Assembly: GCA_903904755.1 (NCBI GenBank)
Contig: CAIVDV010000009.1
Location: 248,001-312,000, forward strand
From: an uncultured Acidobacteriaceae bacterium
GTDB lineage: Bacteria > Acidobacteriota > Terriglobia > Terriglobales > Acidobacteriaceae
Reading direction: 5' to 3'
Length of the DNA: 64,000 nt
In this document: one piece after another, positions 57,112 through 57,478 of the stretch
How the letters are laid out: each line of letters opens with the position of its first letter
Position numbering within the stretch: position 1 is the first letter of the stretch
The notes under the pieces: generated by a model
Databases searched by the model: none
What the model saw: the letters and a program-made list of their open reading frames with translations, nothing else
What the model was told of the DNA's origin: nothing
Made by a program: the position numbers and the translations under genes

Positions 57112-57187
57112 TGGAGCACCGGGCGGGAATTGAACCCGCGAATACTGATTTTGCAGACCAGCGCGTTAGCCACTTCGCCACCGGTGC
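57112..57187 (-). tRNA. tRNA-Cys (anticodon GCA), CCA encoded
   Basis: The 76-base gene folds into a cloverleaf. The acceptor GCACCGG/CCGGTGC is perfect, and the anticodon stem CTGGT/ATCAG encloses loop CTGCAAA with anticodon GCA. The T-arm is GCGGG TTCAATT CCCGC. The discriminator base is U (position 73), as expected for Cys, and CCA is encoded. It lies downstream of a terminator that ends a separate upstream RNA. Confidence 0.97.
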
Positions 57188-57264: not shown

Positions 57265-57443
57265 TAAAAAACCCACCTCGCTGATTTGCGGGTGGGTCGT
57301 GGAGTTTCGAACTCTCTGCGCTTCGCTTTGCCTAGCTACACGCCCCGCCGCTCTGCTTGGTATGGCAGAGACAGCAACAGACGGTCTGGAAGTCAAAGGT
57401 ACGCATACAATCGAATCTCGTCACCGGGTCTTTCCCAGTAAGT
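57265..57443 (-). ncRNA. Candidate noncoding RNA of about 180 bases, unassigned
   Basis: A promoter with consensus-like boxes, a terminator with T-run and no plausible protein frame define a transcript of about 178 bases on the minus strand, ending 77 bases before tRNA-Cys. Local hairpins include ACTGGG/CCCGGT (57423-57439) and CTCTGC/GCAGAG (57351-57370). A T-loop-like TTCGAAA (57305-57311), and a GGGGCGT/ACGACCC pairing (6 of 7 pairs, 57340-57346 with 57294-57300), give a tRNA-like but anticodon-less end. It may be a 6S-type RNA, a tRNA-derived relic or something new. Confidence 0.5.
57266..57297 (-). terminator. Rho-independent terminator of the candidate RNA
   Basis: On the minus strand ACCCACC and GGTGGGT form a 7-bp stem with a 13-base loop, followed by TTTTT. 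It lies between the RNA candidate and tRNA-Cys. Confidence 0.75.
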
Positions 57444-57449
57444 TCTCCT

Positions 57450-57478
57450 AGACTATGGTCTTACCCCGAAAATGTCAA
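57450..57478 (-). promoter_or_regulatory. Promoter with near-consensus boxes for the candidate RNA
   Basis: On the minus strand TTGACA (57473-57478) is the exact -35 consensus. It is separated by 17 bases from TAGTCT (57450-57455). The -35 box overlaps the 3' end of plsC. This is a strong housekeeping-type promoter pointing at the RNA. Confidence 0.65.

Follow-up and report, generated by a model that had tools for sequence, protein, structure and literature searches.

The transcription unit beside the tRNA-Cys gene on the minus strand of the window (the whole 64,000-nucleotide stretch of DNA analyzed here, from an uncultured Acidobacteriaceae bacterium) is very probably a leader-peptide transcription attenuator, in which a translating ribosome would control the tRNA-Cys gene. 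Leader-peptide attenuation is a textbook form of control for amino-acid enzymes and synthetases, and the unit described here appears to control the supply of the tRNA itself. If this is correct, the decoding machinery would tune the abundance of one tRNA by the speed at which its own codons are read, and a shortage of one charged tRNA would turn on the transcription of that same tRNA. The anatomy of the unit (promoter, ORF, enrichment in Cys codons, terminator, co-variation, and linkage to tRNA-Cys) is well supported by the sequences compared, and from this anatomy we infer the translation of the ORF, the stalling of the ribosome, the read-through of the terminator, the physiological purpose, and the feedback on tRNA-Cys.

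Organization of the unit

The features of the unit are given below in the order in which they would be transcribed, with the coordinates of the window.

57473..57478, minus strand: -35 box TTGACA, exact in 11 of the 17 homologous units
57450..57455, minus strand: -10 box TAGTCT, separated from the -35 box by a 17-base spacer
near 57443, minus strand: predicted transcription start
57421..57442, minus strand: 5' hairpin of the leader RNA, CTTACTGGGAAAGACCCGGTGA, from the minimum free energy fold of the window sequence only
57332..57406, minus strand: leader ORF of 24 codons plus TAG, with the peptide MRTFDFQTVCCCLCHTKQSGGACS, its Cys-codon enrichment common to the homologs
57365..57379, minus strand: Cys codon cluster TGT TGC TGT CTC TGC (region 1), the presumed stalling site
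57338-57340, minus strand: additional Cys codon
57339..57349, minus strand: predicted antiterminator 5' strand GGCGGGGCGTG (region 2), within the last codons of the ORF, from the duplex and swap tests and folds
57288..57301, minus strand: predicted antiterminator 3' strand CACGACCCACCCGC (region 3), sharing bases with the 5' arm of the terminator, from the duplex and swap tests and folds
57266..57298, minus strand: intrinsic terminator (regions 3:4), GACCCACCCGC-AAATCA-GCGAGGTGGGTTTTTT, with similar terminators in 17 of 17 units
57112..57187, minus strand: tRNA-Cys (GCA), the proposed regulated gene, identified by ARAGORN and Rfam

The layout is that of an attenuator, with a promoter and a short ORF rich in a single residue, a terminator between this ORF and the gene, and a gene linked to the amino acid that would be sensed. 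The RNA polymerase would start at TTGACA-17-TAGTCT and produce a leader that contains the Cys-rich ORF. When Cys-tRNA is plentiful, the ribosome would reach the stop codon and cover region 2, allowing the terminator 3:4 to form and ending transcription before the tRNA-Cys. When Cys-tRNA is scarce, the ribosome would stall on the Cys codons and leave region 2 free to pair with region 3 as an antiterminator, and the polymerase would continue into the tRNA-Cys. The level of charged tRNA-Cys would thus be under negative feedback. Where cysteine itself is lacking, extra tRNA-Cys would be of no help, which makes the benefit of such a loop unclear.

The analyzed set comprised 17 distinct units from the Acidobacteriaceae, in Terracidiphilus/Occallatibacter, Acidicapsa, and other genera. 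A preliminary description of this locus had recognized a promoter-to-terminator unit beside the tRNA-Cys, which proved to be both real and conserved. The TTGACA-17-TAGTCT promoter is seen in the sequence and recurs in 13 of the 17 units (as a TTGAC[AGT] box, a spacer of 17-18 bases, and a TA...T box), with a -10 box of exactly TAGTCT in nine of these 13, a sequence that agrees with the consensus at three of six positions. The terminator, a GC-rich stem followed by a T-run at 57266-57298, has a counterpart in all 17 units, where its type is CCCACC...GGTGGG with a T-rich tail (CCCACTGCC...CAGTGGG in genome G169). In the window, the stem contains a bulge, the final run consists of six T, and 78 bases separate the terminator from the tRNA-Cys. 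A simple promoter/terminator scanner applied to the window unit detected neither its promoter nor its terminator. The leader RNA, of approximately 178-179 bases, has a fold more stable than that of its shuffled copies (z = -4.8).

The leader ORF and its Cys codons

The preliminary description had reported no reading frame between the promoter and the terminator, which is contradicted by the 24-codon, Cys-rich ORF at 57406-57332 on the minus strand, an ORF below the 40 aa threshold of the ORF listing. The Shine-Dalgarno sequence of this ORF is weak, and its true start codon is uncertain. An in-frame GTG is found 18 bases 5' of the ATG (window 57407-57424, minus strand), which would prepend MTRFDC, with one extra Cys.

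Each leader contains one short ORF, and the trait shared by these ORFs is the cluster of Cys codons, as in MTILHSIRQVPSGCCCCCAGEDIEI, MANFGMNACCLCCCDGSAARASR, MARFSTPAICLCCCCQGCRTARACSLG, and MPVSAARNSMCMCCCMCGRAGMGN, for example. Cys codons account for 72 of the 334 codons across 14 leader ORFs, whereas the remaining five reading frames of this DNA contain 1.5-4.2%, and 2000 shuffles returned a mean of 15 Cys codons and a maximum of 30. Both codons are used (TGT 37 times, TGC 35 times), which points to selection on the residue, rather than on the DNA. The residues beyond the cluster have no conservation across the set, as would be expected if it is the codons, and not the peptide, that matter. 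The transcript is a coding, Cys-rich leader gene rather than a noncoding RNA.

Pairing of the ORF end with the terminator arm

In each unit, the 3' end of the ORF, just before the stop codon, is complementary to the 5' arm of the terminator. In the swap test (n = 17), the native duplexes had a mean of -23.4 kcal/mol, versus -19.3 kcal/mol for the swapped duplexes (p = 2e-5), while smaller sets of 14 units and of 11 de-duplicated units returned p = 6e-4 and p = 0.004, respectively. The control pairs, in which the terminator arm was set against the ORF start, the 5' UTR, the pre-promoter sequence, or the Cys codons, were not significant (p = 0.16-0.997). In G169, which offers the clearest example, the terminator arm is altered to CCCACTGCCAG and the end of the ORF is likewise altered to CTGGCATGGGG, forming a near-perfect duplex. 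The same complementarity explains the tRNA-like end described previously, which was probably perceived because GGCGGGGCGTG pairs with CACGACCCACCCGC, a pairing that is predicted to be the antiterminator and not an acceptor stem; neither ARAGORN nor Rfam recovered a tRNA at the unit.

Folds with a model ribosome placed on the leader follow the proposed mechanism in most units. When the ribosome occupies the stop codon, the arm of the terminator remains free in 11 of 14 units (probability of pairing upstream <= 0.12), whereas when it occupies the first Cys codon, the arm is mostly paired upstream in 12 of 14 (0.5-0.8). The expected contrast between the stalled and the terminating ribosome is absent in G010 and at locus L198, and partly absent in G009. 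Shuffled ORF ends, used as a null for the folding probabilities, pair with the terminator arm to a similar extent in most genomes, and this null is not discriminating because the arm is GC-rich and sticky. Given this lack of specificity in single folds, the structural case depends on the swap test. The terminator arm and the ORF end co-vary across the sequences compared, which provides the predicted alternative antiterminator, with weaker support from the folds of single sequences. A protector hairpin between the Cys codons and region 2 was also considered and rejected, as it does not co-vary (p = 0.42).

Distribution of the unit and its linkage to tRNA-Cys

A DNA search of 60 relatives recovered matches in only two genomes (G004 and G011), which were confined to the terminator and were located just upstream of the tRNA-Cys, and not of plsC. 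A common layout is found in G001, G002, G004, G009, G010, and G011, formed by a TTGACA promoter, a leader of approximately 180-210 bases, CCCACC...GGTGGG, 54-78 bases, and the tRNA-Cys. A pattern scan of the GTDB genomes recovered further units, including those of Terracidiphilus (now Occallatibacter) gabretensis and Acidicapsa dinghuensis. The units in G156, G167, and G169 were recovered by a second tRNA query. The matches of the pattern scan outside the Acidobacteriota were mostly due to chance, with no tRNA-Cys being found there, and a scan of IMG/VR for the unit pattern returned no match. The tRNA-Cys lies directly behind the leader in 17 of 17 units, although the searches for units were mostly anchored on tRNA-Cys; the unbiased DNA search pointed to the same place.

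The comparison of plsC-tRNA-Cys regions proposed in the preliminary description revealed that the conserved neighbor is the tRNA-Cys and not plsC. A small RNA linked to plsC was rejected, as the plsC orthologs of the genus are located elsewhere, without a tRNA-Cys.

The tRNA-Cys is present as a single copy among the 41 tRNA genes detected in the window's genome, and is the only downstream feature common to all the units. Measured from the final base of the stem of the terminator, the tRNA is only 14 bases away in G067, 18 in G169, and 26 in G167, leaving little room for a separate promoter, so that, to judge from this spacing, the tRNA-Cys of these three genomes is almost certainly read through the terminator. 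No TA...T box is found in the 84 bases behind the terminator stem of the window, while some other genomes have one. The gene upstream of the unit is transcribed away from it in most relatives within the genus, which leaves the promoter of the leader as the only visible source of transcription for the tRNA-Cys. No obvious cognate leaders were found before the other tRNA genes detected in the window's genome, and no Cys-rich leader is present upstream of its cysS (locus L199), where tandem GGGGTTAGCG-type repeats occur instead, at approximately 1165-1270 of the locus.

Alternative readings

The Cys-rich peptide or the leader RNA may act alone, for example as a peptide that responds to metals or to redox state, or as a small RNA acting in trans, with the tRNA-Cys being promoted separately. 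Metal-responsive Cys-rich small proteins are known, and the terminator would yield a separate RNA some 178 bases long, but this reading is unlikely given that the peptide is unconserved beyond its Cys cluster, that the terminator arm co-varies with the end of the ORF, that each unit found precedes a tRNA-Cys (in searches mostly anchored on this gene, with which the unbiased DNA search agrees), and that the terminator lies only 14-26 bases from the tRNA-Cys in three genomes. The new small noncoding RNA envisaged in the preliminary description is likewise not the best reading of a transcript with a conserved Cys-rich ORF, an ORF end that co-varies with the terminator, and a constant position before the tRNA-Cys. 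Slightly less probable than a peptide or RNA acting alone is that the main target of the attenuator is a protein gene co-transcribed behind the tRNA-Cys, with the tRNA as a passenger; this gene would be that of an SDR dehydrogenase in several relatives and of a tannase-like enzyme here. An SDR-like gene does follow on the same strand in G001, G002, G010, and G011 (loci L063, L064, L065, and L073), and could share the transcript, while a gene of the tannase family (PF07519) starts 185 bases past the tRNA-Cys of the window. The downstream gene, however, differs or is convergent elsewhere (G004, L174, and L184, for example), whereas the tRNA-Cys is constant in 17 of 17 units, and, to our knowledge, neither the SDR dehydrogenase nor the tannase-like enzyme has a link to cysteine.

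The least probable reading, by far, makes the unit a structured noncoding RNA, with 6S as the candidate suggested previously on the basis of size. The length of about 178 bases and the stable, rod-like fold (z = -4.8) would fit, and the Rfam 6S is undetected in the window's genome. A 6S identity is rejected, given that no 6S match was obtained at the unit even at E = 10, that the Cys-coding ORF is conserved in frame, and that in G002 a 6S scoring above the Rfam cut-off (L051, contig C77) is present in addition to the unit (contig C112). The covariance searches suggested for 6S, tmRNA, SRP, RNase P, and the Rfam families returned nothing more for the unit than a weak match. At the gathering thresholds, Rfam recovered only the neighboring tRNA-Cys, and at E <= 10 within the unit, only RcsR1, which was rejected (E = 0.26, with its alignment largely on the hairpin of the terminator); tmRNA, SRP, and RNase P had no Rfam or ARAGORN match at the unit. 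The Rfam 6S model finds 6S RNA in the majority of the family's other genera. In the window's genus, where the 6S may have diverged or been missed by the model, it matches only one of the 15 genomes (G000-G014).

Comparison with known systems

Cys-leader attenuators are already known before cysS and cysteine operons, and what appears to be new, from the gene order observed here, is the tRNA gene as the target. The uORFC-8-2 motif, found ahead of cysS in the Rhodobacterales, has been proposed to sense charged tRNA-Cys by ribosome-mediated attenuation, and resembles the present unit in its short uORF, tandem Cys codons, hairpins, and intrinsic terminator (PMC8632094). Its target is the cysteinyl-tRNA synthetase mRNA of alphaproteobacteria, however, whereas the unit of the window precedes, and would target, the tRNA-Cys gene of an Acidobacteriaceae, and the ORFs described here have 4-7 Cys codons. 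In Mycobacterium and other Actinobacteria, operons for cysteine metabolism are preceded by poly-Cys leader ORFs that lack conserved terminator hairpins (PMC1262725). Like the present unit, these leaders have a short ORF with Cys codons in runs, but the mycobacterial ORFs are leaderless, while in the window unit an untranslated stretch precedes the ORF, an intrinsic terminator follows it, and the putative target is a tRNA. To judge by its title, the work of Canestrari in 2020 (cited in PMC13236596) reportedly found the poly-Cys leaders to be cysteine-responsive in mycobacteria.

The classical attenuators (trp, his, and pheST) share the regulatory codons, the mutually exclusive antiterminator and terminator, and the stop codon beside region 2, but target biosynthetic or synthetase mRNAs rather than a tRNA gene. 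T-box riboswitches likewise make the read-through of a terminator dependent on tRNA charging, although they bind the uncharged tRNA directly and need no leader ORF, and the present unit has no Rfam T-box match. The 6S RNA (RF00013) is similar in length, but the unit has no match to its covariance model and occupies a separate place from the 6S in G002. It has been noted that hardly any of the attenuators predicted for acidobacteria are associated with functions (PMC2965389). No report of the control of any tRNA gene by a leader peptide was found in the open-access literature, although a report elsewhere is possible.

Alternation with a peroxiredoxin-like gene

In many related Acidobacteriaceae genera, which are without the leader, the tRNA-Cys is found directly behind a same-strand peroxiredoxin-like gene, named from the reading of its sequence. 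Under a motif rule, approximately 23 tRNA-Cys loci were linked to the peroxiredoxin-like gene, 12 had a Cys leader, five had neither, and none had both, which suggests that the peroxiredoxin linkage and the Cys leader are two alternative ways of driving the tRNA-Cys. The attenuation of a tRNA gene through a leader peptide of its own codons, in alternation, within the family, with a peroxiredoxin-linked tRNA-Cys, is a likely reading and would be the first loop of this kind known to us. The peroxiredoxin-like arrangement was observed at loci L066, L068-L072, L074-L077, L079, L081, and L082, among others.
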